NCBI GenBank assembly: GCA_021157805.1
Contig: JAGGVW010000116.1
Location: 1-15,158, forward strand
Reading direction: 5' to 3'
Length of the DNA: 15,158 nucleotides
Source: a bacterium
GTDB lineage: Bacteria; Ratteibacteria; UBA8468; B48-G9; JAFGKM01
The notes beneath the pieces are model-generated. The model searched no databases. It was not told where the DNA came from and worked only from the letters and a program-made list of their open reading frames with translations. Position numbers and translations under genes: made by a program. Positions 1 through 15,158 of this stretch are shown here, one piece after another (position 1 is the first letter of the stretch; every line of letters starts with the position of its first letter).

Positions 1-3000
1 ACAGATTTTACAGAATTTGCAGATGCTGTGAAAGAGAAAATTATAACTGAAGTTCATCTTGGAATATCTCCTCCAACATTACCAGATACAATTGCAGGTC
101 TTCCTTATTATCAGGATTTATCTGTTGAAGGAGGAGAACCACCTTATACATGGGGAATTGATTCAGGAGAATTTCCTCCTGGATTGGAAATAGACACTTT
201 AACTGGGGAAATAACAGGGGCTGTAACAACTGGAGGAACATATGATTTTGTTGTTGGAGTTACTGATTCTTCTGACCCACCAGTTCATCAATCTCAGAGT
301 TATACAATTACTGCTGATACACCCTCTTATGTACCAGTGGAAAGAACAGGTGGAAAATTGTTATATGTAAAGGATGTAGTGAGAGATACAGATGGAAATA
401 TTACAAATACAGGAAATTTATATATAAAGGATATTGAAACAAGAGAAGAAAGACCACTTACAAATTATACAGGAAATTTCATTATTCGCAACCCTTCTTT
501 TTCTTATAATGGAAGTCAGATAATTTATACAAGCAATGTAAGTGGAAGTTGGAAAATCTATTTAATAAGTTCAGAAGGAACTGTTTCTTCTTCAGACGAA
601 GGAGTAGTATGTGAGAACGGTTATCCCCATCCATATGCTGCTTTATCCCCGGATGGAAGGTTTATTGCATTTGTTCAGGAATATAATGGAAAAACCCAAT
701 TGTGGTACTATGATAGAGAAGAAAGAAAATATTCCATGATAAGAGATGAAAAAGAGTTAATAATTAGAGATATTGCTTTTCTAAATGATGATTACCTTGT
801 ATTTGTTGGAATTTCTCAAAACATTCAGGATATATATAAAATAAGTATAAGTGGATTATCTTTAACAAATTTAACAAATAACTCTCCACCAACTCCTCAA
901 TATGGAAGATTGATGACAACATGGAGATATACTGATTTAATTACTTTTTATGATTATATAAATGATATAACTTACAACCTCAATGAAATTATATACTCAA
1001 AAAGAAACTGGGACCAGTTTGATTATGGAAAGTGGGATATTTACTCATTTAATGCTGATTTTAGAACAGAAGTAAATTTAACAGATACACCTGATATGAA
1101 TGAATATGAACCATCTTTTGGAAATATAGCAGATTTCTGGAGAGGAGATATGTTTTATTCTGCTTCCATATTGGCTGGACCTGATGTATGGAGAGCAAAT
1201 TATGAATGGTATGACTGGTATACTGTAAGTAATTCTTTAAAAGACCAGTGGACAGGAACAACTTCAACAACAGAAAACACAGGAATGATTGATTTCATTC
1301 CATCAACATTCTTTGGAATTTCAGAAAAAATAATAACAATTCCAGAAACAAGATTTTTCTATATAGATGGAGGAAATATTTACAGAGGTGATTACGATGA
1401 AAATACTTCTAACTGGAATTTAATCCAGCCAATAACAACTCCTGCAACAAGAACAGAAATTTCAGGTGCAAAAAACGGAGGAGTTATTGCTTATACAGGA
1501 GGAACTTCACCTACTTATATAACAAAACTAAATCATGATGGAACAGGAGAAGGTATTTTTGCTTCTGATACAGTGAATTTAAGAAACTCATTTGTTTCTG
1601 CAGATGGAAGATGGATAATTTATGTAAAAGAAGAAAGTGGTGGAACTTATGGAATTTATGGAAAATTAACATCAGGGGGAGCAGAACAAACGATTTTATC
1701 AGGAATAACAGAAAGAATTGGAGAAGTTGCATTAAATCACGATATGACAAAAGTTGTATATTCAAAAGAAGAAATTAGTGGAAAATACGACATTTATATA
1801 AGAGATATAATTACTACAGCAAAAACCATAACTGGCAGTGGGACTCCAGTTAATCTTACAAATAGTCCAAATGCAGATGATAGGTATCCTTCATTTTCTC
1901 CTGATGGTCAACTAATAATTTTTGTTTCTGATATCTGGGATAGTACTTCCAGAATTTTCACTATGGATATAAATGGAAATGGACTTACCCTTATTGTTGG
2001 AGATGAAAATGGAAATCCAGTACATCCTGCATGGCCATTTTTTGGTCCTGTAAATTATGATGAAAGTAATTATTACATTTCTTATATTTCAGATAATCCA
2101 GCAGCAGGAACAAGAACAATAAAAGTTGCTTCTTTCCCAGAAACTGACCCAACCCCTGATGATGGAGAAAATCTTGCAACTTTATTATATGATACTAATA
2201 TATCCCCTTCTGATGATAGATATGTATGGGTGATAAAAAGAGAGAAAGGAACAATTGTAGGAGAAAGGAGAATACCTGAAAGAATTGGTTCAGGTTTAAA
2301 CTTTACCTATCAAATTGTCATAGATACAGATGAAGCAAGTTTACCTTCAAGTTTTACTTTAAATGAAATTTTACCAAATACTTTTAATATTAATTCAATT
2401 TCTATAGATGGAAATCCTATACCGACAACAAATTATTCAGTATTTAATAATTTTCCTTCCTCTGGACTTCAGACATTAAAAATTCTCTTTTACTCTGGAT
2501 ATAATTATGGGATAAAAGACCATCTTATTGAAATTGAAGTTCAATCTTCTTCAACTACTGGAAATTACTCAATTAGTGGAAATATTAAATACCTCCTTAA
2601 CGGATTTAATAGAGAAGAAACTATTTCTGGTAGTGGTAAAATAAGTGTTTCTCCTCCATTTATGCCTGTTGATATTTATGACCCTGATGATAATGCTCCT
2701 GATTCAAGTGGAAACAGAGTGCCAAATGGAAATACAGAAGAGCCCAATGGAATAATTGATGACTATGACTTACTTTATGCAATTGATTGCTGGACAATTG
2801 ATGCACAACTTCCAGGATACGGACCAAAATGGCCTTCTGATATAAGCAACTGGGATAACATAATTCTTGCTGTAATAGACATCTGGGCATCTCAGGGGAA
2901 AAAAGGATATTATGACCCAACAGGCGGAGGAGGAAATACACAGGTGAATAATCGTCAAACAAAACCTGGAGAATATGTATTTATTGGAGATAAAGATTCA

Positions 3001-3096
3001 CCTGGAGATAATTTACCTGAAATATATGCACCTGATGGAGCAACTCCTGGATATCCTGAGATGTTCTGGACCCAGGGAGAATGGGCTAATCCATAA
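1..3096 (+). CDS. Secreted TolB/PD40 propeller protein with He_PIG and dockerin-like modules (5' partial)
   Basis: The frame is open to base 1 with coding-like sequence (T-D-F-T-E-F-A-D-A-V), so the gene starts outside the window; the GTG at 28 is internal. 1031 residues are visible. The first ~20 residues could be the last helix of a VWA domain (weak guess). Residues ~27-101 match a He_PIG Ig-like domain (PPYTW, PPGLEIDTLTGEITG, Y-x-F-V-V-x-V-T-D). Residues ~117-705 carry irregular PD40/TolB-type blades, best seen as YNGSQIIYTS, SPDGRFIAFV, SADGRWIIYV and SPDGQLIIFVSD. Residues ~755-885 are probably a divergent copy of the sandwich domain shared across this window. Residues ~888-972 are a degenerate dockerin-like module (IDDYDLLYAID-x-W ... 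NWDNIILAVIDIWA ... GYYD), followed by a Gly-rich linker and a ~50-residue tail. It is probably a non-enzymatic surface or extracellular binding protein. Its closest relative here is the minus-strand gene at the right edge. Domain calls are good; function is inferred. Confidence 0.85.
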   Translation, partial: TDFTEFADAVKEKIITEVHLGISPPTLPDTIAGLPYYQDLSVEGGEPPYTWGIDSGEFPPGLEIDTLTGEITGAVTTGGTYDFVVGVTDSSDPPVHQSQSYTITADTPSYVPVERTGGKLLYVKDVVRDTDGNITNTGNLYIKDIETREERPLTNYTGNFIIRNPSFSYNGSQIIYTSNVSGSWKIYLISSEGTVSSSDEGVVCENGYPHPYAALSPDGRFIAFVQEYNGKTQLWYYDREERKYSMIRDEKELIIRDIAFLNDDYLVFVGISQNIQDIYKISISGLSLTNLTNNSPPTPQYGRLMTTWRYTDLITFYDYINDITYNLNEIIYSKRNWDQFDYGKWDIYSFNADFRTEVNLTDTPDMNEYEPSFGNIADFWRGDMFYSASILAGPDVWRANYEWYDWYTVSNSLKDQWTGTTSTTENTGMIDFIPSTFFGISEKIITIPETRFFYIDGGNIYRGDYDENTSNWNLIQPITTPATRTEISGAKNGGVIAYTGGTSPTYITKLNHDGTGEGIFASDTVNLRNSFVSADGRWIIYVKEESGGTYGIYGKLTSGGAEQTILSGITERIGEVALNHDMTKVVYSKEEISGKYDIYIRDIITTAKTITGSGTPVNLTNSPNADDRYPSFSPDGQLIIFVSDIWDSTSRIFTMDINGNGLTLIVGDENGNPVHPAWPFFGPVNYDESNYYISYISDNPAAGTRTIKVASFPETDPTPDDGENLATLLYDTNISPSDDRYVWVIKREKGTIVGERRIPERIGSGLNFTYQIVIDTDEASLPSSFTLNEILPNTFNINSISIDGNPIPTTNYSVFNNFPSSGLQTLKILFYSGYNYGIKDHLIEIEVQSSSTTGNYSISGNIKYLLNGFNREETISGSGKISVSPPFMPVDIYDPDDNAPDSSGNRVPNGNTEEPNGIIDDYDLLYAIDCWTIDAQLPGYGPKWPSDISNWDNIILAVIDIWASQGKKGYYDPTGGGGNTQVNNRQTKPGEYVFIGDKDSPGDNLPEIYAPDGATPGYPEMFWTQGEWANP

Positions 3097-3098
3097 AT

Positions 3099-3127
3099 TT
3101 GACTTTTACCTGAAAAAAATATATCAT
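3099..3127 (+). promoter_or_regulatory. Predicted sigma70-type promoter for the dockerin gene
   Basis: TTGACT (3099-3104), a 17-base AT-rich spacer, and TATCAT (3122-3127); each hexamer has five of six consensus bases. Transcription would begin near 3134-3135, only 4-5 bases before the ATG at 3139. There is no Shine-Dalgarno sequence in the gap, so the mRNA may be nearly leaderless. The promoter sits in the 42-base gap after the upstream stop codon and could also serve the PilZ gene. An alternative pair, TTTACC (3105) and TATATT (3128), would start transcription inside the gene and is less likely. Predicted from sequence only. Confidence 0.55.
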
Positions 3128-3138
3128 TATATTCAAAA

Positions 3139-3738
3139 ATGGGAAAAATAAATTTTTTGTTCATCATTTTCTCTATTTTATTTATGAACATTTCTCTCTT
3201 TACTTCAGATACAGCAACAAGAGACCTACCTGATTATTATACTGCGGGAAGTAATTTTGAAGTTACAATTTATGTTAATACAGATACTCAAAATCCTCCT
3301 ACAGGTGTTATAATCAGTGAAACTTTACCTTCTAACTGGTCAATTATTTCTTCAAATCCACAATGGTCAAAGTACCAGTCCTCAACAAATACATATAAAT
3401 GGCTTAAATTCAATTCTTCAGGTGTTTCTCCTTTTACAATAACTTATACAGTTTCAGTTCCGGAAGGAACAACGGGTACTTATGAGTTTTCTGGTATAAT
3501 AAATACAACTACCAGTGGAGAAGTTTCCATTGAAGGAGACACTTATATTTCCGATAATATCCAGAAAGGTGATATAAATGGAGATGGGGAAGTTGATATA
3601 AGTGATGTTATTTTATGTTTAAGGCAGGCAGTAGAACTTGACCCACCACAACCAGATTTAGCAGATATAAACGAAGATGGGGAAATTGATATAAGTGATG
3701 TTATTTTAATTTTGAGAATAGCAGTTGGTCTTGATTAA
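3139..3738 (+). CDS. Small secreted sandwich-domain protein with type I dockerin
   Basis: 199 residues. An N-terminal signal peptide (~1-23: MGKIN, then a hydrophobic core) is followed by one copy of the window's shared beta-sandwich domain (~27-137: RDLPDYYTAG, GVIISETLP, TYKWLKF, ITYTVSVPEG, IEGD). Then comes a textbook type I dockerin with two calcium loops, D145-x-N147-x-D149-G and D176-x-N178-x-D180-G, each continuing into a D-I-S-D-V-I-L helix. Dockerins bind cohesin domains on other proteins, usually in multiprotein surface or extracellular assemblies; no cohesin is recognisable in this window. The signal peptide and sandwich domain resemble the probable lipoprotein at 5810-6265, which lacks the dockerin, suggesting the two are paralogues. 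There is no ribosome binding site, but a good promoter lies just upstream. The PilZ gene follows after 31 bases. The dockerin is near certain; the ligand is unknown. Confidence 0.92.
   Translation: MGKINFLFIIFSILFMNISLFTSDTATRDLPDYYTAGSNFEVTIYVNTDTQNPPTGVIISETLPSNWSIISSNPQWSKYQSSTNTYKWLKFNSSGVSPFTITYTVSVPEGTTGTYEFSGIINTTTSGEVSIEGDTYISDNIQKGDINGDGEVDISDVILCLRQAVELDPPQPDLADINEDGEIDISDVILILRIAVGLD
3571..3708 (+). repeat. Duplicated dockerin half-repeats, nearly identical at DNA level
   Basis: Two 45-base units, 3571-3615 and 3664-3708, encode the two dockerin calcium-loop/helix motifs and differ at 3 of 45 bases by my hand alignment (one silent, two changing an amino acid: Gly/Glu and Val/Ile). 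The last 23 bases of the units are identical. This is the normal dockerin internal duplication, but unusually well conserved at nucleotide level, suggesting recent duplication or conversion between the halves. Confidence 0.85.
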
Positions 3739-3769
3739 ATCACATCGAAAGTTCCAGAAATTAAAATAA

Positions 3770-5773
3770 ATGATATTCAAAACAGATGAAAAATGTCTTG
3801 TTTTTCTAAAAGGAAAACTGTTCAGAGGGGTTATTATTTCTGTTGTCTCTGAAAATGAGATTGTTTTAAAAATTTATCCCCCATTTAAATATGAAGAAGA
3901 AAAAGTAGATGGAGAAATTTATTTTACAAGAAGTGCCAGGAGATTTTATGCTAAAGCACGATTTATTTTTATAAATGAAGTTGAAGTTATTGTAAAAGTT
4001 CTTTCTCCCATTTTACCTGATAGAAGGAAAGATATAAGAATTAAGTTATATCCTTTAAGTGTAAAACTTGTAAAAGGATTTAATGAAATAAATGGAGAAA
4101 TTATTAATATTTCCTTCTCTGGAGCAAAAATAAAAACAGATTACCCTTTAAAAAAAGGAGAAAATTACAAAATTGAGATTGATTTTGGTAAGGAAATTTT
4201 TAGAGGTGAATGTGTAGTGGCTGAAGTTTATACAGATTTTGAAGTGTATTACGGTATTTCTTTTGAAAATATTTCTTATAAGAATGAAGAAATCCTTGAA
4301 AAATTTTTGAAAATTATTGAAGAAGAAAACGAAATTGGCTTTTATAGAATAGTTAGAAAAATTTATTTAGATATTCTCGGGGATATTTCTACTGGTATTC
4401 ATAAAGTTAGTGGTAGAAACTGTATTATAAGAGAGATAAAAAAACAATTAATTAGAGAGGACTTCACAAAAGATATTGATAAAATCCGTTTTTTATCACA
4501 CCCAAACTTGACAAAAATAAACAGGATAATAAAAAGAGATGAATATTTTGTTATTATGGAAGAAGTAAAAGGAGAGATTTTATCTTCCCTTATAGAAAAT
4601 AAAGGTGTTTTTTCTATTTATTCTGCCTGCGAGATAATTTTACAGATTCTTGAAGGAATTAATTATCTTGAAAAAATGGGATTGAGACCTTCGTTTATTC
4701 TTCCATCAGGTATTTTTATTGACGATAATGGAAAAATTAAAATGTTTGATGTTATTTTTTCCTCTTATGTTGATATAAACCAACTTTTAAAATTGAATTT
4801 AAAAGGTTCTTTCATTTATTCCAGCCCTTTTTATCAAATAGAAATTCCATATTATTTAAGTCCATTATTAAAAAAAGGAAAAGAAGATTTAAATACTTAT
4901 TTTTATTCTATTGGTGCTGTTTTTTATAAAATGCTTTCCGGGATGCTTCCTGTGAGAATGAATAGAAATTTACCAGAAGGGTTTATGAATCTGATTTTAA
5001 AGCTCACATCTGCAGAAAAACTGGAAATAGAAGAAATTATGGAAGAAGTTGAGTTCCTGATGAGTGGAAGCGAAAGTCAGGGAAAGGATGGAAAGAGAGA
5101 AGAAAGAAAAGAATATAGAGAAAAAAGGAGCATAAGATTTAAAATACCAGATGTAAAACTTTTAGAAATTTCAAGAAAATTTTTTAAAAATATTATCGGA
5201 GAATTTAAGAAGTTCTTTATAAAGTATTTTTATTTCAAAAAAAGAGAATTATTCAAACCATACAAAAAAATTATTCTAATTTCAACAATTTCTATTCTTT
5301 TTCTTTCAACTATTTTTTACTGGATTTATTCTGAATTTTATGCTCCTGTTTTAATATTACAAAAACCACCGCCTGTTGAAGTAAAAGTAAAAAACTTCAA
5401 TGTAAAAAAAAACAGGAGAAAAGAACAAAATAAAGAAATAACAGTAAATATTAAAGTGCCAGAATTTAGAATAAAAGAAGAAGTAAATAAAGAAAATTTT
5501 GAAGAATTGCTTTTGAAATATAAATTACCTGTTTATACAATTAAAGATAAAAAATATATAAGTTTGAGAACAATGGAAAAAGTTTTGAGGTTTAAAAATG
5601 TTAAAGTTGGAAAGGACATAATATTTTTTGAATATAAAGATAAGGAAGTTTTGATAAATTTAAGAAAAAATGAGATAAACATAAATGGGAAAATTAAAAA
5701 ATTAGAAAATCCAGTTAAAACCATACTTGAAGAAAAATTAATATCTGTATCTACTATAAAAACAATTTTATAG
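3770..5773 (+). CDS. PilZ–pseudokinase–TM–Cu-amine-oxidase-N-like receptor
   Basis: 667 residues; an in-frame TAA directly before the ATG fixes the start. Residues 1-84 resemble a YcgR-type N-terminal PilZN barrel. Residues ~85-182 are a PilZ domain keeping both c-di-GMP motifs: R86-x-x-x-R90 and N113-x-S115-x-x-G118. Residues ~191-430 align with Hanks-type kinases (FLSHPNL, VIMEEVKGEIL, YSIGAVFYKMLSGMLP) but the catalytic residues are gone: VAIK Lys is Arg221, HRDxKPxN reads PSFILPSG, and DFG reads DVI. It should be a pseudokinase. After a basic linker, residues ~500-520 form one membrane helix with positive residues before it, placing the N-terminus in the cytoplasm. Residues ~585-667 match the copper amine oxidase N-terminal-like family (YISLRTMEKVL, ININGK, ISVSTI), outside the membrane. 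Likely role: signal transfer across the membrane in response to c-di-GMP (inference). No clear ribosome binding site; probably co-transcribed with the dockerin gene. Confidence 0.9.
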   Translation: MIFKTDEKCLVFLKGKLFRGVIISVVSENEIVLKIYPPFKYEEEKVDGEIYFTRSARRFYAKARFIFINEVEVIVKVLSPILPDRRKDIRIKLYPLSVKLVKGFNEINGEIINISFSGAKIKTDYPLKKGENYKIEIDFGKEIFRGECVVAEVYTDFEVYYGISFENISYKNEEILEKFLKIIEEENEIGFYRIVRKIYLDILGDISTGIHKVSGRNCIIREIKKQLIREDFTKDIDKIRFLSHPNLTKINRIIKRDEYFVIMEEVKGEILSSLIENKGVFSIYSACEIILQILEGINYLEKMGLRPSFILPSGIFIDDNGKIKMFDVIFSSYVDINQLLKLNLKGSFIYSSPFYQIEIPYYLSPLLKKGKEDLNTYFYSIGAVFYKMLSGMLPVRMNRNLPEGFMNLILKLTSAEKLEIEEIMEEVEFLMSGSESQGKDGKREERKEYREKRSIRFKIPDVKLLEISRKFFKNIIGEFKKFFIKYFYFKKRELFKPYKKIILISTISILFLSTIFYWIYSEFYAPVLILQKPPPVEVKVKNFNVKKNRRKEQNKEITVNIKVPEFRIKEEVNKENFEELLLKYKLPVYTIKDKKYISLRTMEKVLRFKNVKVGKDIIFFEYKDKEVLINLRKNEININGKIKKLENPVKTILEEKLISVSTIKTIL

Positions 5774-5809
5774 ATTTTCCCAGAACCGCGTCTTCCAAAC
5801 CAGGTCCTC
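5774..5809. other. Convergent intergenic junction with GC-rich block
   Basis: This 36-base gap separates the stop codons of two converging genes. Bases 5779-5808 are 18/30 G+C, clearly above the AT-rich surroundings. On the minus strand AGGACC (5808-5803) can pair with GGTTCT (5787-5782) with one G-U pair across a 15-base loop, giving a weak hairpin just after the stop. No T-tract follows in either direction, so I do not call a rho-independent terminator. Confidence 0.5.
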
Positions 5810-6265
5810 TTATGGATTATTCCTTATTTTTTTATCACCACCAATTGGTATATTTTTTTCTCTGAATGTTTTAATTACCCCCTTAAATTCCTTTTCTCCA
5901 TTTTCACCTTCCGGGATTTTAACTGTATATGTAATTTCAAAAGGTAAAATTTCCTTCCCGTAAAAGAGGTATTTATAAGTATTTTTCTCTCTTTTCATAT
6001 ACTGAGGGGTTGACTTGATTATTTCCCATCTTTCAGGGATTTTTTCTTCTACAATAATTCCTGGCGTTTTCTTTGCTGGAGAAACTACAATTTTTACTTT
6101 TATCGCTTTCCCTGCTTTATAATACTCTGGTAAAAATCTTATTGCAGTTGACCTGCTGGTAATTTCTTTCTCTTTTTTTATTTTCCCTAATTCTTTTTTG
6201 TTTGTTGAAGCACAGGACATAAAAAATAAAGATAAAATTGTGATTAAGGTATTTATTTTCCCCAT
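5810..6265 (-). CDS. Probable lipoprotein with one shared sandwich domain
   Basis: 151 residues and last gene of the minus-strand operon. The N-terminus has a short signal peptide ending F-M-S-C18, an imperfect lipobox, so lipid anchoring at C18 is likely but not certain. A Lys-rich linker (~20-40) leads to one copy of the shared beta-sandwich domain (~43-146): RFLPEYYKAG, GIIVEEKIPERW, TYKYLFYG, ITYTVKIPEG and a closing GGD. The protein stops where the plus-strand paralogue (3139-3738) continues into a dockerin, and the two signal peptides are alike (MGKIN ... FM). The start is supported by AAGGAGG three bases upstream, a short but strong site. It may act as a membrane-bound partner or adaptor for the secreted proteins; nothing enzymatic is visible. 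Confidence 0.85.
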   Translation of the reverse strand: MGKINTLITILSLFFMSCASTNKKELGKIKKEKEITSRSTAIRFLPEYYKAGKAIKVKIVVSPAKKTPGIIVEEKIPERWEIIKSTPQYMKREKNTYKYLFYGKEILPFEITYTVKIPEGENGEKEFKGVIKTFREKNIPIGGDKKIRNNP

Positions 6266-6268
6266 TTT

Positions 6269-6275
6269 CCTCCTT
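6269..6275 (-). promoter_or_regulatory. Ribosome binding site AAGGAGG
   Basis: A perfect AAGGAGG lies only 3 bases before the ATG at 6265. It supports that start despite the tight spacing and contrasts with the plus-strand genes, which show no such site. Confidence 0.75.
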
Positions 6276-6282
6276 CTTTTTC

Positions 6283-6295
6283 AGAACCCGGTTCT
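6283..6295. repeat. GC-rich palindrome overlapping a stop codon
   Basis: AGAACC-C-GGTTCT, a perfect 6-bp dyad around one central base. It overlaps two bases of the TAG stop (6294-6296) of the stalk-protein gene and precedes the ribosome binding site of the next gene. As RNA the loop is too tight for all six pairs, so it could be an intercistronic hairpin, a protein-binding site or a repeat remnant. No T-run follows. Confidence 0.5.
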
Positions 6296-7247
6296 ATAAA
6301 GTTGATTGTCCTGTTATTGTCCCCTTTCCTGCTGTTGTTTTATAACTTCCTGTTATTTTCCCTCCACCTTCTCCCTGTAAAGTATAATTTATTGTTTGTG
6401 ATGAAATACCCCTGCCATAAAAAAGCCATTTGTATGTCTTATCTGTCTTTTTTGCATATTTTGGAGAAGAATTAGTTATAGTGTAATTTGCAGGAATTGT
6501 CTCTGTTATTATAAGCCCTGATATGTTTTGTTTTATTTCTATATTCAGAGAAACATTTGCCCCACCTGAAAAAGTTGAAATACTTCTTGTTATTGTTAAT
6601 ATTTCAGGATTGTTGTTATTATCTTCTTCATTATTGTTTTCATCATTCTCATTGTTGTTCCCTTCATTTTCTCCTGTATTTGGTGCCGATGAATTTCCAG
6701 AATATTCAGTAGATGGACCTGATGTAATTGGCGTTCCCCCCATTGATGAAGAACTGTTATTATCTCCTTTATTACTTTTTTTTATATTTGAAGAAGAAGT
6801 TGTAGAGGATATACGAGATGAATATATGGGAGAAGAATTGTATTTTTGAGGAGAAGAATAGGTTGGAGTAAATTTAGAACCTGTTGAACTTCTCATTCCA
6901 ACTGATAAAGAAGAATTATTGTAAGAATTATGTTCCCATTTATCTTTATATTTTTCATTTAAAGCAAGTATTTTCTTTAACCATTCTTTCTTTTCTTTCT
7001 TTTCTCCTTTAATAAGTTTCTTTAGTTTTTCTTTCTTTTCTGATGGGATATTTTCAATTTTTTCTTTCTTCTTTTCTGTTTTTATCAATTTTTCTTTAAT
7101 TACTTCAGTTGGTGATACCTTTTCAATTGACTTTGAAACAGAGACATTTTTTTCTTTGTTTTTAGCAGGACCAATAAGAAAAAACATTATAATAATTAAA
7201 ACCCCTGATAAAAAACCTATAATTAGTTTAGTCATTTCTTTTTTCAT
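6294..7247 (-). CDS. Membrane-anchored stalk protein with C-terminal sandwich domain
   Basis: 317 residues. One N-terminal membrane helix (~8-26) acts as an uncleaved anchor or signal. Next come a highly charged Lys/Glu-rich stretch (~29-104), probably helical, and a long Ser/Asn/Gly-rich low-complexity linker (~107-214). The C-terminal ~100 residues are a copy of the shared beta-sandwich domain ([22 protein letters not shown]). The layout suggests a head held away from the membrane on a flexible stalk. The ATG overlaps the TGA of the upstream gene (ATGA), a hallmark of translational coupling; a modest AAGG lies just ahead. The low-complexity part will give poor homology hits, so the domain is easily missed. 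No catalytic motif is seen. Confidence 0.85.
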
Positions 7248-10200
7248 TTTACCTTGCTATAAAGACGAATTGAAAAAATAATTCCTGTATTAAGTAAAAA
7301 CAGGAAAAGGAGTAATAGGTATCTGGTCTTTAAGAATATATAAGCAAAAAGGTAAAGAGGAGTTAAGAAAATCCGTGTTAAAAATCTCAAAAATCCATTT
7401 TTAGCGATTATTGAAGCATATTTTGGGCTGTGTCTGTAATACCATCTGACAAATGCTTTTCCTGATTTGTTTGTAAGTAAATATTTATCTCTAAATTGTC
7501 TCAATATCCAGACATGTTTTTCCTGATATGAACCATAAGAAGCAGTTGCTATAAAACATCCACCCCCTCCACCTCCTTCATCTGGTTGTTGTCCATATGC
7601 CTGGACTGGTTCGGAAATTCCTGGTTTTGACTCTACAATTCCACCATTTTCAGCAATTCTTTGAGCATAAATTTCGTATCTGTAATCCACTGCAGTTTCA
7701 ATATCTGAATCAACATATGTATAATCAACCCAGTCAGGTTCAAAGTGAGCAGCAACTGGCATTTCAAAATATGTGTTATCAGTAAGATTAACTCTTCTTA
7801 TCAGAAACTGGGTTGCTCTTTTATCTGGATGGTCAGGGTCATAACTTCTATCTCTCCAGTAAATAGTTATTGAATTTATCCCACCAACTGCTCTTACATC
7901 ATCAGGGGACATATTATCAGGCCAGCCAAGTAATCTTCCTTTGTGGAAATAATAGGGGTCTGATGGGTCAGGAGATACATTTGAGTCAATTGTTTTCTCT
8001 TCTCCTCCCTGTAAATAATGCATCCTTACTATGTATTGATATTGAACGCCTTCTTCTGGCGGAAATGGACCATCAACTGAATTAAAATAAAAGTTTGTAT
8101 TGTAATTATGAATAGTGGCAATTGATTCAGTTATCCCAGTAGTTGTATCTGTTCTTAATATCTCATAATATAAGAAACTCTCAGGGGGTATGTAAGTACT
8201 ATTATTCCAATAAATCCATATTCCATTAAATTCTGAGAGTGTGTTAGCAAGGAAGGACTCAGAATAAATCGGATTAAATATACCTGATTGGGCTCTTACA
8301 TAAACATTGCTTTTTACTTCATTTATATCCGCAATTCCTATAGCACGGCTACCCCAGGTCTCCCAATCAGAAGTATCAATTCCCCATCCAACAATTCCAC
8401 AATCAAAAGAATCACCCGATGAAAATGTGCTTGAGGTTCTTATTACCACAAATAATGTTGCTGGAATTGCTACAGGATTTAGAAATTCAAATTGATATGT
8501 TGAAGGTGTTCCTGGATAACTTAAAATTCTATATCTTCTTATCAGAACAGGTGTATCTAAATCTTCATAAAAATTTCCATCCCCATCATCCTGATATATT
8601 ACTACTCCACACTGTTTTAATGCATCAATATTAAAATAAGTTACATCATACCATCCAGTAGAAGGGTTAAACACAGGGTATATTGGGTCAAATGAAGCAA
8701 GGTCATCAAGAGAAAAATTACCTCTATCATAAAATTCAACTGCCATCTGTTCAAGTTTCGGACTTTTTCCAGAATTATTGTCATTCAGTTCAACTTTAAA
8801 TACAGGTGTGGGAGGAGAATTCGGAACAAGTCCTGGATTTCCCGGGTCTGTTAAAGAAGTTATTTTTACAAATACATTTCCATAAATTTCTTCTGTTGAG
8901 CAAGATAAAGAATTGTAATAATCTTCAATTGGATAGGTTAATTTAAGTCCTCCATCTTCTGGAATTCTAACCCTGAATTTTGCTCCATAACTCATATTTT
9001 CTTTTGTTCTTATACAAACGAAAAAGTCATCTCCATAATAATTTGCCGGGAAAACACTTCCATTGTAACTGGAATGCCAGTCGTCAGGATAAATTTCTCC
9101 CTGGTCTTCTGCCATCGCAACTGTTGAAATTATACAGTAATAAAGATGACAAGGTCCATACTCAGGGTCATTTACAAATCCAGCATAAACCCAACCAGAA
9201 GAATTTGTTGGAACAAATGTATCAGAAGAATCAAAACTTCCAATATTACCCCTTTCTTTATTATCTCTCCACAAAGTTATCCCTGCCTTTTCATCTCCTG
9301 AACTTGAAAGAGGAGCAAGGTCTGTCCGAGGGTCAAAATTTTCAAAAGCAAGGATTTCAATCTTTATATCTCTTATCCTTGTCCCATCAAAACTATCAAA
9401 AGAGCCAAGGTCAGGAGCATTCTCTATATCTGAAGGACCTGAAGCAATATTTATTCCAAAGACCGGAATAACATTATCTGTTAAATCAACTTCACTTTCT
9501 GTTCTTTCAGGGTCAACTCTTCTTTGGGAAACATCCTCAAGATAAAGATTGCTATAAATTGTTTTTACCTGTCCGATATTTATTCCTGCATATTTTACAG
9601 GATATGAAACAGGTCCAAAAATAATATCTCCTGGATTTATCCATATTTTAAAGTCCCTTCCTATAACTGGTCTGTAAGAAGAATCCTCTGGGTTACTTCT
9701 TATAACTATAACAATAAAATAATCATAAATACCATCATATAAGTTTTCAATAGGTTCTTCATTTGCTGGAGTAATAATTGCTTTCCATTCATTGTCACCT
9801 GAAGGAAAAATTGAAAGGTTAATATCTATTATAGCATCAACATCTGGGTCCCATTTCCCATCTTGATTTGTATCTCTCCATAATTGTATTCCATTATATT
9901 TATCATCTACATATTCTGTTCTGAATGATTTTGTCGGGTCAAAATTACTTTTCCCGGTATCTGTTATTGTAAGTGTAATACTTGTTAAATATTCTGGTGG
10001 GTCCTGAATCTTCGGGCTTGCCGTTCCTGATGGAGTTACATTTCTCTGAGAACAACCAATTGCAAGAACTGCTGTTGGAGTTTCAAATGGTATTACCTGT
10101 GGAATTGGATGTTCTAAAGGATATGGAGAAAGGTTGTAGGTATTATTAAGATAATCGGGTCTTATCTGTTCTCCTGGTTGCCACTGGAAATAAGATGGAT

Positions 10201-10804
10201 ATTCCGGGGTTGAAGTTGAATTATGATGTGAGACATTGGTAAATTCAATAGGTAGAAGGTCAACAACTATTAATTCACAGATTATTGTATTTGTTGTTAA
10301 AGAAGGAGAATCAGCATCTCCTTCTTCTACAGGTGTCCAGGAAACTCTATCAATTTTAAAATTGGAGGAACTATCCATCAAACTATCATCTGTTGTTCTT
10401 ATTGCAATAAAAAAGTCATCTCCTTCATTTCCACCTTCATCATCTGCTGGAATAGCAATATTACAGGGAATAGTTCCTGTTCCTGAAATTGAAGCAAGAA
10501 CATTACCACTTCTATCTAATATTGCACTTCTATCAATGTCAAGTCCTCCATAAGTAGAGACAGGATTATTTGTAATGGTAACTCCTGTCAATCTCTGTCC
10601 TGAATCAGAAGCAATGTTAAGTCCAGCAATTATAATATAACCGTCATAAGGACTTTGATTATATCTATTGTTTGGTAATATTCCCTGTCCTGTTACTGTA
10701 TAATCAGTAAAAGATACTGTGGTTATTTTTGAGAGCCCTGTTCTTGCTGTAAATAAAATTAGAATAGAAAAAACTAATTGATAAATTACTTTTATTTTCT
10801 TCAT
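7244..10804 (-). CDS. Large CFI-box exoprotein with four unfamiliar repeats and two FN3-like domains
   Basis: 1186 residues from the ATG at 10804. I chose this over the ATG at 10858 because it begins a proper signal peptide ([12 protein letters not shown]...), has AGGAG ten bases upstream and avoids a 34-base overlap with the previous gene; the earlier ATG adds 18 charged residues and has no binding site. Four degenerate repeats follow (~55-155, 243-390, 445-615, 665-800). Most show G-[IV]-x-[LI]-[WY]-x-D plus an Asp-rich turn, and all end near [DF]F-x-x-IR-[TS]. I do not recognise this repeat. Two FN3-like domains (~857-945 and ~968-1070) come next. A Gly6 linker leads to the CFI-box (C1083-[21 protein letters not shown]-x-HSPKYA). 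Unlike the sister protein it ends with a further strongly hydrophobic helix and a basic tail. Probably exported and held at the envelope through the C-terminus; ligand unknown. Confidence 0.88.
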
Positions 10805-10824
10805 CTTTCCCTTTCTCCTTTTGA
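10805..10824 (-). promoter_or_regulatory. Ribosome binding region that sets the start at 10804
   Basis: The 20-base gap after the nucleotidyltransferase stop holds AGGAG (about 10 bases before the ATG) and a closer AAGGG. No comparable motif precedes the alternative ATG at 10858, so translation from 10804 is favoured. Confidence 0.65.
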
Positions 10825-11232
10825 TTATTTTACCTTCTTTTTTACTTTTTCTCTCCATCTGTAAAAGTCAATAACAAAGTCAGCAAAATCTTCTGCTTCT
10901 CTTGAAATTTTCAGCATATATTCATAATAAAATTTTTTATCTTTTATTTTTAGAGGTATTCCTCTTAATGCCTCCCAGACAATTGTTTCTCTTGCTTCAT
11001 TCATTACAATCAGGTCAACATTTTTTCCAAGTATTTCTTCCAGTTTATCCCAGACCTTATGAAGTTTCTTTAAATCCCATTTACGGGCAGTGTAAATTCC
11101 TATATCAACATCTGAAATATCTCTTTCTCTATTTTTTGCATAGGAGCCAAAAAGAAAAGCAAGAATAATATCCTTCTCTTTTTCTAAATAATCCTTTAAT
11201 TTATTTATCTTTTCTTCTTTTCCTTTTCCCAT
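10825..11232 (-). CDS. MntA-like minimal nucleotidyltransferase
   Basis: 135 residues, a full-length minimal nucleotidyltransferase of the DNA polymerase beta superfamily. The signature G29-S30, ten residues, D41-V-D43 fits the GSX10DXD motif of MntA-type proteins exactly, and D73 in NVDLIVM is the expected third metal-binding Asp. In HEPN-MNT toxin-antitoxin pairs, MntA transfers AMP to the HEPN (HepT) toxin to neutralise it. Here both neighbours are exoproteins and I find no HEPN gene (R-x4-6-H) next to it or elsewhere in the window, so it appears to be an orphan. It is predicted cytoplasmic, unlike the rest of the operon. It follows the upstream gene by 27 bases, where the only strong Shine-Dalgarno-like sequence lies in a hairpin 21 bases from the ATG. 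The target is unknown; it may be a degraded toxin-antitoxin pair or a reused nucleotidyltransferase. Confidence 0.92.
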
Positions 11233-11259: not shown

Positions 11260-13053
11260 TCATAGCAAAATTTTACAAAATGCAATAAGTGGTTTCAGCC
11301 CCATGCGAACAATTGCTTTAAGAACCGGTCTTTTTCTTATAAATCTTGCGTATTTTGGACTGTGTTTATAATACCATCTGACAAAAGCACGACCTAATTT
11401 ATTTTTAAGTAAGTATTTATCTCTAAATTTCTTTAAAACCACAACTTCTTTTGCCATAGGAGTTCCGTAGGCTGCTGTTGCTATAAAACAACCACCCCCT
11501 CCTCCACCTGAAGGAATAAAAGGATAGCCAAGGGAAAAATAATTCATTTCTCCCATATCTTCAACTTCAACTGTTATATATCCAATTGGGTCAGTTGCAT
11601 CTGTTTCCTCTATATCAACTATACTCAGTTCTTCCCATTCTCTTTTATCAGAATTCCACTGATAAACTTTTAAGTCATCTATTTTATTTACTCCTGCTGC
11701 ATCAAGGTCTGTTTGATGAACAGGAATTTTTATGTTTATAGGGGAAATAAGATTGACATTATTGGTTAAAACCCCATATATATTTGCAAAACCAAGAAGT
11801 CCAGAATGGATAGGTGCGTAATCAGAGTCAATATTTCCAAGATTAAAAGAAGCAGGTGGAGTGCCTGTTAATGAATTTTCAGGGATAATAAGTTCAAAAC
11901 CATCCATTGGAGTTGTTGTTCCATCAAGTAAATAATCAAAATCAGAGGAAAAATCGGTAATTTCTGGATTGGCAAGTGATTGCTGTGGTATTGCATTTGC
12001 AGAAAGTGGTGTTGAATAGTTTATGTCCGCAAAAGAATAAATATTATAGAAAATGTCTGTATCATTTATTATCTCATCAAAATAACTTGTAAGTTCATAA
12101 GTAACTTTAGTTTCACATTCACTTCCATCAGAAAGATTACTTGGATAACCATCTGGATTGCCTGGAACATCATAATAAATTCCATCAACAGGATTTGCTG
12201 TTATTGGAGAACCAATTCTTTTGAATATTATAATTCCTGTGTATTCATCCGGGTTTTCCCAGACAAGATATATTCCTCCAGGGACACCATAAGCAGAAAA
12301 ACTTTTAACTGGTGATGGACTTCCTACAATAAGAATAACATTTATTGTGGCATTACCATCATTACTTGCAAAATCAATAGTGGCTGTATGTGTTCCTGCT
12401 TCAAGACCTGCTCTATCAACATTTGCAGTTATAAATTCACTCTCCCCTGCCCCTAAAACTCCACTTGTCCTTGTTATTGTTAGCCATGCCTGAGATACAG
12501 TTGCTTCCCATAGTAAATTTGCTCCTCCAGTATTTGTCACTGTAAACTGGAGCGCTGTTTCATCTGTTCCGAAATTCAAGGTATCAGGACTTACAGCAAG
12601 TTGAGGTGGAACAGAAGTTAAAATTACTGTATCTCCTCCTATGTCATCTTCTATAGGTGCTCCAGTATCAACATCATTATATTTCAATTTTCCTGTAAAA
12701 TATTGTTCTCCTGAAGATGTTGGAGGAACACTTGCAGTATATGTTATGTCTCTATCTTTAACATTTCCTCCATAAAATAACCATTTATATGTTCCATCTA
12801 CAACACTATCATAAGGTGGAGAGGAAGAGGTAATTGTCCAGCCAGAAGGTGGTGTTTCTGTTACAATAAGTCCTGTTGGTGGGTGTGTATCATCAGTTAT
12901 ATCTATATTTATAATTACATCAACTGTTCCTCCAGGATTATACCAATCAGGTAATTCTCTTGTTCCTGTTACTTCTCTTTGAGCAAAAATTTTTACAACG
13001 AAAATTAAAAAAAACCAAGTCAATACATAAGAAATTAAGTTTCTAATTTTCAT
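11260..13053 (-). CDS. CFI-box exoprotein with sandwich, BACON-like, FN3-like and ZU5-like domains
   Basis: 597 residues. Signal peptide ~1-24 (cleavage probably after IFA). Next is a clear copy of the shared beta-sandwich domain (~31-142: [44 protein letters not shown]). Residues ~149-244 match a BACON-like domain (LAVSPDTLNFG, FTVTNTGGANLLW, AWLTI, SG, AGTHTATIDFASNDG), ~246-355 an FN3-like domain, and ~365-510 a ZU5-like region (IIPENSLTG, INIKIP, YQWNSDKREWEEL, NYFSLGYP). The protein ends with Gly6 and a CFI-box (C522-FIATAAYG, FRDKYLLKNKLGRAFVRWYY, HSPKYA, then a hydrophobic tail). CFI-box C-termini recur on exported proteins and are thought to act in surface retention or processing; the enzyme is unknown. 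GGAGGAGG seven bases upstream fixes the start. The upstream propeller gene ends 16 bases before. Confidence 0.9.
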   Translation of the reverse strand: MKIRNLISYVLTWFFLIFVVKIFAQREVTGTRELPDWYNPGGTVDVIINIDITDDTHPPTGLIVTETPPSGWTITSSSPPYDSVVDGTYKWLFYGGNVKDRDITYTASVPPTSSGEQYFTGKLKYNDVDTGAPIEDDIGGDTVILTSVPPQLAVSPDTLNFGTDETALQFTVTNTGGANLLWEATVSQAWLTITRTSGVLGAGESEFITANVDRAGLEAGTHTATIDFASNDGNATINVILIVGSPSPVKSFSAYGVPGGIYLVWENPDEYTGIIIFKRIGSPITANPVDGIYYDVPGNPDGYPSNLSDGSECETKVTYELTSYFDEIINDTDIFYNIYSFADINYSTPLSANAIPQQSLANPEITDFSSDFDYLLDGTTTPMDGFELIIPENSLTGTPPASFNLGNIDSDYAPIHSGLLGFANIYGVLTNNVNLISPINIKIPVHQTDLDAAGVNKIDDLKVYQWNSDKREWEELSIVDIEETDATDPIGYITVEVEDMGEMNYFSLGYPFIPSGGGGGGCFIATAAYGTPMAKEVVVLKKFRDKYLLKNKLGRAFVRWYYKHSPKYARFIRKRPVLKAIVRMGLKPLIAFCKILL

Positions 13054-13069: not shown

Positions 13070-15158
13070 TTATCTGGGTTTCCACCATGGTTTTTGTTGA
13101 TTTATACTTTCATTCTGGTCATACTCATATCCGTCATTATCTGCCCAGAAATCAATAAGTTTCAAAAGGTATATATCCCAGTTATTTAAATCTTCTGGCC
13201 ATCCATGAATCTGTGTATTTGTTGCCCAGTAATCAATTGCATTTAAAAGTTCTTCATCTGAAATTTTCCAGTTCTCATCCGTATCTACTGGAATTGTCGG
13301 TTCTCCTATTGTTATATATGCATCTCCTTTCGTGGTATAGTAATTGTCTCCTTCAAAAAAGCCACCATTTATACATCTTATTTCTCCAGTAGTATCTCCT
13401 GAAAGGTCAACAGTTAATTCAAGAGTTCCTCCAGTTAACTCATCCATAGGAAAGTTTGTTCCAATAATCCATTTTAGTGTTCCTGTCGTTGCATTATTGT
13501 CTGGTAGAAAATTTGTATCATTATATGTTGCATCTGTTAATTCCCAGTCAACTGCTGAGTCAGGAGTTGTTGGCAGTATTTCCTGTAAAATTATATTTGA
13601 AGGTGGATTTATCTCATTAACCTCTATTATGAGTTTATATCTGAAAGGAATATTAGGGTCAACTTTTGAATAAATAAACTGCCTTGTTACTATTATTCTC
13701 TGTAAGTTATATTTTGCCCAGTCAAATTTTTTATATGTTTCTATAGAAGGAGAAAGTTTTTCCGCCTCACCTGTTTCAATATTCCCAATGTAAATTTCTC
13801 CATCTGAAATATAAGCAATTTCATTTTCACCATAAGGATTGAAAACAGGATAACCTGGATTGACAGGTGAAGGAGTTAAATTCACAGAATGCTGGTCTGT
13901 TCCATCAGAATTCATTATGAATATTATAGGAGTTCCTGTTCTTGTTGAAACAAAAACAATCTTGTTCCCATCAGGAGAAAAAGAGGGATTATAATTTTCA
14001 TGTCCAGTATCATTTGTTAAATTTACTGGTTCTCCATCAACTCTCACTGTGGTTTCAAAAATTGTTATTGGAAGAGAGAAAATCTGAAATCCAGAAGATG
14101 TTTCTCCTGAATAAATCAAAAATTTCCCATCTGGAGAAATATCAAGGTTTTGTTTTGAATATTGAGGGATGTTTGTTAATTTCTGTGGTAAAATGGTCTT
14201 ATCAATTCTTCTTGCATAAATATCATTATCTTTAATATAGAACAACCATTCCCCATCCGGAGAAATAACAGGATATTTTGCATCAAATGTATTATCAACT
14301 TGAGTATTTCCTGTTCCATCAACTTTCATAACCCAAACGCCATTTCCTGAATATGCAATATAATTTCCTGATATATCAAAAGCAGGATAATTATTAAGAT
14401 TTACAGTATCTGTGAGTTTCTTATCCTGCCCATCATAAGTTCTCATCCATATCTGATCATCGCTACCAACATAAACAAATTGAGTTGGTTGAGGTAGTGG
14501 AAGGAAATAGTAAGGGAAAGAAGCATTTAATGAAGATGGTATTTTATTTAAATAAGGAGATTGAGTATTAAAAATTGTAAAGTAAAGATATAGGTCTCCA
14601 GTTGTGTATTCTTCCCCTTTAAAAATAAACTGTCCTGTATTAACGAAAACAGGCATCGGGTCTGGCTGATTTTCCGGGTCTTCTGTGTAATAAAGTCCTG
14701 TTAAAACCTTTGCTTCTCCTCCAGAAACATTTCTTGTATAAATTTCCCAGTCAGAATATCCACTTGCATCCTGTGTCTGTTTTCCATAAATAATCATTGT
14801 TTTTTCTGAATTTAACATTGGTCTTCCAAGTTTTGGAAAATATGGAGAAAGTTGAGAGTTATATGTAATATTTGTAGGTTCTGCTCCAGTTGTTGAAACA
14901 ATATAATAATCCTGTAAAGTTGAATTCACCTCATCAACTCTAAACAAAATATGGCTGTCATCTATAAAAACAGGGTATGAACAATCCCAGTTTTCAAATG
15001 TAAGTTGATAAAGTCGTTTCTGTCCTGTTAATTCTTTCAACCATATTTGTTTTCCACCCGGCATACTCTCAATACTTTCAGCAGCAAAAGCAAGTAATGT
15101 TTTATCTGAATTTAATGCTCCATATTCTTGATTTTTAGTTGCCTGATTTAAGTTATAT
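13070..15158 (-). CDS. Secreted TolB/PD40 propeller protein with dockerin-like C-terminus (5' partial)
   Basis: The frame stays open upstream of the ATG at 15064 to the window edge and encodes propeller sequence (YGALNSDKTLLAFAAESIES), so that ATG is internal; 695 residues are visible. About ten PD40/TolB-type blades fill residues ~12-470, with clear units such as SPDGEWLFYI, SPDGKFLIYSG and SPDGNKIVFVSTR, each ending in short IW/IY-x-x and K-L-T/NLT strands. Residues ~488-618 are probably a divergent copy of the shared sandwich domain (IILQEILP, TLKWI, GDAYITI). Residues ~624-680 form a degenerate dockerin-like module (DTDENWKISDEELLNAIDYW ... NWD-x-x-LLKLIDFWA ... GYEYD). The C-terminal order matches the plus-strand protein at the left edge. 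It is the first visible gene of the minus-strand operon, and its promoter and signal peptide lie beyond the window. A Tol-Pal TolB role is unlikely given the extra modules; surface binding is more plausible. Confidence 0.87.
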   Translation of the reverse strand, partial: YNLNQATKNQEYGALNSDKTLLAFAAESIESMPGGKQIWLKELTGQKRLYQLTFENWDCSYPVFIDDSHILFRVDEVNSTLQDYYIVSTTGAEPTNITYNSQLSPYFPKLGRPMLNSEKTMIIYGKQTQDASGYSDWEIYTRNVSGGEAKVLTGLYYTEDPENQPDPMPVFVNTGQFIFKGEEYTTGDLYLYFTIFNTQSPYLNKIPSSLNASFPYYFLPLPQPTQFVYVGSDDQIWMRTYDGQDKKLTDTVNLNNYPAFDISGNYIAYSGNGVWVMKVDGTGNTQVDNTFDAKYPVISPDGEWLFYIKDNDIYARRIDKTILPQKLTNIPQYSKQNLDISPDGKFLIYSGETSSGFQIFSLPITIFETTVRVDGEPVNLTNDTGHENYNPSFSPDGNKIVFVSTRTGTPIIFIMNSDGTDQHSVNLTPSPVNPGYPVFNPYGENEIAYISDGEIYIGNIETGEAEKLSPSIETYKKFDWAKYNLQRIIVTRQFIYSKVDPNIPFRYKLIIEVNEINPPSNIILQEILPTTPDSAVDWELTDATYNDTNFLPDNNATTGTLKWIIGTNFPMDELTGGTLELTVDLSGDTTGEIRCINGGFFEGDNYYTTKGDAYITIGEPTIPVDTDENWKISDEELLNAIDYWATNTQIHGWPEDLNNWDIYLLKLIDFWADNDGYEYDQNESINQQKPWWKPR

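Follow-up and report, generated by a model that had tools for sequence, protein, structure and literature searches.

A YcgR-type c-di-GMP module joined to a membrane pseudokinase: a candidate c-di-GMP-gated scaffold in a small protein family

We identified a 667-amino-acid protein that joins a c-di-GMP module to a dead kinase fold, a membrane helix, and an exodomain. Its gene lies at 3770..5773 of the window, the whole 15,158-nucleotide stretch of bacterial DNA that was analyzed (G+C content, 32%). The parts follow in the order N-barrel, PilZ, pseudokinase, linker, helix, and exodomain. This anatomy is real, conserved, and well defined. The arrangement is new, its component domains are known, and we infer its function. 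From sequence, structural models, and analogy to described systems, it is probably (about 0.55) a membrane-anchored c-di-GMP receptor whose output would be protein docking and not phosphorylation. The gene, its parts, and its upstream neighbor lie at the following positions:

3139..3738 (+), upstream gene for a DUF11-dockerin protein, ending 31 bases before the gene (Dockerin_1, E = 1.1e-7)
3770..5773 (+), whole gene, with YcgR-type c-di-GMP module, pseudokinase, membrane helix, and exodomain (ORF list)
3770..4015 (+), N-terminal beta-barrel, YcgR-N-like, residues 1-82
4016..4336 (+), PilZ domain, residues 83-189
4025..4039 (+), RxxxR motif, R86-R90, both Arg in 9/9 members
4106..4123 (+), [N/D]xSxxG motif, residues 113-118, in 9/9 members, with N in four and D in five
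4337..5059 (+), pseudokinase domain, residues 190-430 (PF00069, AF2, and kinase matches by Foldseek and VIA)
4421..4435 (+), degenerate VAIK motif, CIIRE, with Lys replaced by Arg221 (Arg in 9/9)
4688..4711 (+), degenerate catalytic loop, PSFILPSG (307-314) in place of HRDxKxxN (9/9)
4748..4756 (+), degenerate DFG motif, DVI, with Asp327 kept (Asp kept and Phe-Gly lost in 9/9)
5060..5260 (+), basic, poorly conserved linker, residues 431-497 (14 of 67 positions invariant)
5264..5326 (+), single membrane helix, about residues 499-519 (hydropathy)
5495..5770 (+), C-terminal domain past the helix, residues 576-667, divergent and suggestive of PF07833 (sub-threshold Pfam match, AF2)

The family is small. 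Searching some 5.8 billion proteins at E <= 1e-5 gave 10 rows, which were the query, eight full-length relatives, and one generic kinase covering 25% of the query. Seven relatives were 84-99% identical to the query, and the eighth (P0009) was 49% identical. A profile search returned the same nine members and eight generic kinases that covered 25-33% of the query. With the kinase part masked and three of the nine sequences used as query, only the nine members were returned. Each protein search scored about 8000 candidates (7998 in the first) that shared most words with the query, so distant relatives may be missed. The contigs of the eight relatives are at most 12.2 kb long. Scans of species genomes (63 and 210 pattern stretches) and viral contigs (188) gave no confirmed relative. 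With a relative's protein as query, 39 plasmid records matched and none covered more than 80%; among the matches listed (10 of 39), only the kinase part was matched.

All nine members match PilZ and Pkinase in Pfam, and match PF07833 weakly. The reading frame is open across all parts in every one. The arrangement is thus a stable feature of a small family, and not a one-off fusion or an assembly error. One member (P0008) lacks 15 residues near residue 66, from the last strands of the N-barrel, and its remaining frame is open. Mean identity of the eight close members to P0009 was 51% for the N-barrel, 53% for PilZ, 56% for the pseudokinase, and 56% for the C-terminal domain. It was 36% for the linker, 33% for the helix, and 22% for the juxtamembrane segment. 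Invariant positions numbered 112/241 in the pseudokinase, 51/107 in PilZ, 5/23 in the helix, and 9/55 in the outer flank. The dead kinase shows the same level of conservation as PilZ and the exodomain while the linker and juxtamembrane segment drift, which argues that selection keeps the fold without catalysis.

The AF2 model of the full-length protein had a mean pLDDT of 48.9, so only its residues 1-180 and 577-667 were used. In Pfam, PilZ and Pkinase exceeded their cut-offs and Cu_amine_oxidN1 did not. The PilZ match (PF07238) spanned residues 84-180 with an E value of 3.4e-10 and 40.6 bits (cut-off, 22.5), and the eight relatives scored 35.0-45.7 bits. A reading made earlier from the sequence only had named intact RxxxR (86-90) and NxSxxG (113-118) motifs. 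Both lie where it placed them and are conserved in all nine members; residues 113-118 here are NISFSG. It had described the front of the protein as a PilZ domain. The PilZ domain is intact, and a preceding barrel (residues 1-82) had been overlooked, so the front is a two-barrel module of the YcgR type. The PilZ barrel forms part of a fold that resembles solved YcgR-type receptors, and the nearest two-barrel folds by structure comparison were MotI/DgrA, VCA0042, YcgR, and MrkH. With a barrel before its PilZ domain, the protein belongs with the YcgR-type two-barrel receptors. The conserved motifs suggest that the module is competent to bind c-di-GMP.

The Pkinase match (PF00069) spanned residues 204-402 with an E value of 1e-14, above the cut-off. 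AF2 gave residues 184-436 a pLDDT of 86.6 and a pTM of 0.88. That model was built on a 17-row alignment with eight generic kinases, which help it adopt a kinase fold, and the independent support is the protein's own Pfam score. The kinase fold proposed earlier for residues 185-430 is thus borne out by both prediction and profile, and the domain belongs to the protein kinase fold. The closest kinase structures by Foldseek and VIA were Stk1/PknB and CDPK. The best sequence match to a solved structure was Staphylococcus aureus PknB/Stk1. The best named NCBIfam match was PknB_PASTA_kin at 42.8 bits, far under its cut-off of 450.

Motif columns were assigned by alignment to kinases with intact motifs. 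The catalytic loop carries Phe for Asp, Leu for Lys, and Gly for Asn in all nine members. The DFG site is DVI or DIL. The APE Glu, the helix-F Asp, and the middle Gly of the glycine loop are also lost in 9/9 members. The acidic residue of helix C varies (D in five, Y in three, and E in one). A 22-column gap is present in all four family rows aligned with intact-motif kinases (four of the nine members); it falls where helix G presumably sits in kinases. The sequence-only reading had the catalytic Lys, HRD, and DFG all missing. This holds for Lys and HRD, and needs amending for DFG, which keeps Asp327 and has lost Phe-Gly. The domain does not group with active Ser/Thr kinases, as the Lys and the HRD Asp are absent and the DFG Asp is present in 9/9 members. 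In the available text of a 2025 review, a bacterial pseudokinase is defined by loss of at least one of three catalytic residues (PMC12599244). Two of the three are lost in every member. The conserved substitutions indicate that kinase catalysis has probably been lost.

Two pseudokinase families described in the same text were compared (PMC12599244). ActPs2 has Arg for Lys, Asn for the HRD Asp, and a DFG deletion, and DYD has Arg for Lys, a catalytic-loop Asn, and a DYD motif. The Arg for Lys fits both. The Phe at the HRD Asp, the Gly at the loop Asn, and the DVI or DIL at DFG exclude membership in either. A defense reading was also rejected. Matches were obtained to 18 PADLOC families (17 PD-T4-6 models and mad6), and their best stretches all lay within residues 185-414, so they reflect the shared kinase fold.

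The earlier call of one membrane helix holds, as a single clear hydrophobic stretch lies at about residues 499-519. The Kyte-Doolittle peak is 2.24 at residue 501, and the next best elsewhere is 1.61. Residues 440-498 contain 20 Lys/Arg and 9 Asp/Glu. By the positive-inside rule, a basic segment before the helix places the N terminus in the cytoplasm. The outer flank (residues 518-560) is also net basic (9 versus 4 charges), and with basic charge on both sides of the helix the argument from this rule is of moderate strength only. The PilZ-kinase front belongs in the cytoplasm and supports the same topology, so with moderate confidence the N terminus is predicted to be cytoplasmic.

A compact domain is predicted for the C-terminal 92 residues (AF2 block pLDDT, 58-82). 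The Cu_amine_oxidN1 match in this protein spanned residues 583-664 with an E value of 0.039, below the cut-off. Matches to PF07833, the Cu amine oxidase N/stalk domain, were sub-threshold in 9/9 members (best, 22.7 bits against 24.2; best E value, 1e-4). When aligned by hhalign with PF07833 domains from a single Paenibacillus plasmid (using 11 of 15 matches), the exodomain was in register, with a probability of 6.3% and an E value of 0.0059. The alignment scored 19.6, whereas 50 column shuffles reached at most 16.4 and five segments from elsewhere in the protein at most 10.7. The Cu-amine-oxidase-N-like exodomain named earlier therefore stands as a resemblance, in register and above 50/50 shuffles; as a family assignment it does not, with 0/9 members passing the cut-off. 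We describe the exodomain as PF07833-like and nothing beyond, and even this is only suggestive. A search of solved structures with the C-terminal profile gave four rows (best E value, 0.23), none of them credible. Pfam and NCBIfam recognized no ligand-binding family in the exodomain.

The dockerin neighbor and the facing exoprotein genes had both been noted earlier, and both are there. Upstream is the DUF11-dockerin gene. A beta-propeller gene lies 42 bases upstream of the dockerin gene; its start is close to the end of the contig, and it may be truncated. A convergent minus-strand cluster faces the gene, and it encodes apparently exported proteins with a DUF11-like or CFI-box-CTERM domain. 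TolB/PD40-like beta-propeller proteins lie near both contig ends (28-3096, +; 13070-15064, -), and in both the propeller is followed by a weak DUF11-like match. The DUF11-like domain of the dockerin protein (about 110 residues) recurs strongly in three of the eight other ORFs compared (5810-6265, 6294-7247, and 11260-13053; E values, 2e-26 to 1e-12) and weakly in two more (13070-15064 and 28-3096). These ORFs, which lie on both strands, encode apparently exported proteins of one family that has spread by duplication. CFI-box-CTERM ends two large proteins, at 7244-10858 (-) and 11260-13053 (-), with 94.4 and 101.6 bits (cut-off, 40). Between these two exoprotein genes lies one for an MntA-family nucleotidyltransferase antitoxin (10825-11232, -; 70.1 bits against 60). 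Among the neighboring ORFs of at least 80 amino acids, none was recognized as its HEPN partner.

A promoter and terminator scan of 3000-6400 was at chance (17 promoter-like sites against 17.1 expected and 1 terminator-like site against 1.4), so only the 31-base gap points to cotranscription with the dockerin gene. Five of the eight relatives have a predicted 14-residue N-terminal extension that resembles the intergenic stretch at 3728-3770, which in the dockerin frame reads LD, stop, ITSKVPEIK. The start codons of those five were therefore probably called too early. The same gene probably lies upstream in those five relatives. The link of the protein to exoprotein genes comes from this one contig, with an indirect trace in the intergenic sequence common to five of the eight relatives.

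The sequence-only reading did not recognize the architecture as a described family, and we did not find the combination in print in the open-licence literature searched. Among the open-licence papers and listings examined, no PilZ-pseudokinase protein appeared. One candidate paper, as far as its text was available, was unrelated (PMC12802240), and the other matches listed with it looked, from titles and abstract openings, like hits on an author's name. In its main text, the 2025 bacterial pseudokinase review contains no occurrence of PilZ or c-di-GMP (PMC12599244). The combination of PilZ, pseudokinase, helix, and exodomain thus appears undescribed within this literature.

Several known systems share some of the parts. 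Pkn1 of Myxococcus xanthus is described, in the available text, as a Ser/Thr kinase with a PilZ domain predicted not to bind c-di-GMP (PMC8316039). Both it and the protein described here join a kinase fold to PilZ, but here the kinase is dead and the PilZ motifs are intact. That description of Pkn1 mentions neither an N-terminal barrel nor an exodomain, which sets it apart. YcgR and MotI (DgrA) have the same two-barrel fold with RxxxR and [N/D]xSxxG. Among the matches listed, the solved two-barrel chains are 209-247 residues long, whereas here the module forms the N-terminal part of a membrane pseudokinase protein. Alg44, in the available account, has an N-terminal PilZ domain, one membrane helix, and a C-terminal periplasmic domain (PMC8461298). 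It resembles the present protein in its PilZ domain, single helix, and outer domain. It differs in that the outer domain is a membrane-fusion domain, it works with the polymerase Alg8, and the same account mentions no kinase fold (PMC8461298). EssB/YukC and MviN are described as membrane proteins that use a pseudokinase as a scaffold; they share the membrane pseudokinase, but no c-di-GMP receptor is described for them in the available text (PMC12599244).

The two-barrel module, dead kinase fold, helix, and outer domain come from the sequence and predicted structure, and the scaffolding role from the precedent of EssB/YukC and MviN. In the YcgR family, c-di-GMP reorients the two barrels. Here, c-di-GMP would bind at R86-R90 and residues 113-118 and reorient the barrels in the same way. 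This would alter a docking surface of the pseudokinase, or its dimerization, on the inner side of the membrane. The exodomain would anchor the protein at the cell envelope or engage it, perhaps near exported proteins like those of the adjoining genes. Taken together, the protein would act as a c-di-GMP-gated scaffold, with the logic of EssB/YukC or MviN and a second-messenger receptor in front. The restriction to one narrow lineage, the 15 residues missing from the N-barrel of P0008, and the only moderate charge argument for topology count against this explanation. The kept DFG Asp and the Arg for Lys leave room for nucleotide binding, and they count against a pure scaffold.

Signal transmission to the outside is possible. 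A one-protein relay with LapD-like logic had been proposed in the sequence-only reading. In such a relay, c-di-GMP binding would change the exodomain by way of the pseudokinase, linker, and helix. The intact receptor motifs inside, the adjoining exoprotein genes, and an exodomain conserved to the same degree as the other parts (56% identical to P0009) would fit it. The conservation of the membrane part bears on it in two ways. In the comparison with P0009, conservation is lowest in the helix and outer flank; a segment that relays a specific change would not be expected to vary so much, and the pattern favors anchoring. Among the eight close members, conservation is highest in the helix (mean identity, 91.1%), which supports the relay and speaks against the anchoring reading; the juxtamembrane segment (85.3%) is not unusual there, and the other parts are at 80.6-90.6%. 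LapD has a degenerate GGDEF-EAL and relays through a HAMP element. Pfam gave no match to GGDEF-EAL or HAMP at E values up to 1, so the protein is not a LapD and the relay would lack a recognized HAMP. We consider the relay unlikely. The same low standing applies to a new class of second-messenger receptor, in which a c-di-GMP-gated transmembrane pseudokinase run from inside would change conformation and pass this change through the membrane to control surface proteins.

Signaling in the opposite direction is less probable again. The exodomain would be the sensor, detecting a ligand in the envelope in the manner of the outer region of PASTA kinases, and the PilZ-pseudokinase would integrate that input with c-di-GMP. 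The PASTA kinases PknB/Stk1 have the order kinase fold, helix, and outer domain, and the present protein has the same order. They are also its top kinase matches by sequence and Foldseek, with PknB_PASTA_kin the top named profile. They are active enzymes with PASTA repeats, whereas this protein has a dead kinase, a c-di-GMP module, and no PASTA match in Pfam at E values up to 1, and it is not a PASTA kinase. It would have no catalytic output to switch, and its exodomain has no recognized ligand-binding family.

It is improbable that the kinase fold still binds nucleotides or, like SelO, carries out a reaction other than phosphotransfer. The DFG Asp and the Arg for Lys, each in 9/9 members, would suit such a role, and ATP binding is proposed from AlphaFold3 models for ActPs2 and DYD, both with Arg for Lys, in the available review text (PMC12599244). 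The lost glycine-loop Gly and the Gly at the catalytic-loop Asn (both 9/9), and a helix-C acidic residue that is not fixed, argue against it. Decay of a receptor kinase that can do without its kinase part would explain the loss of nearly every catalytic residue and the shortened N-barrel of P0008, but it is very improbable given that the frame is open over all parts in 9/9 members and that conservation of the pseudokinase matches that of PilZ.

The available text of the review describes bacterial pseudokinases as mostly unexplored by experiment (PMC12599244). If the c-di-GMP-gated scaffold is correct, it would join c-di-GMP control with bacterial pseudokinases, which are unconnected in the literature searched. 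It would offer a single-gene system for asking what small-molecule gating makes a dead kinase do. The candidate ligand-controlled input would make the output of a pseudokinase testable.
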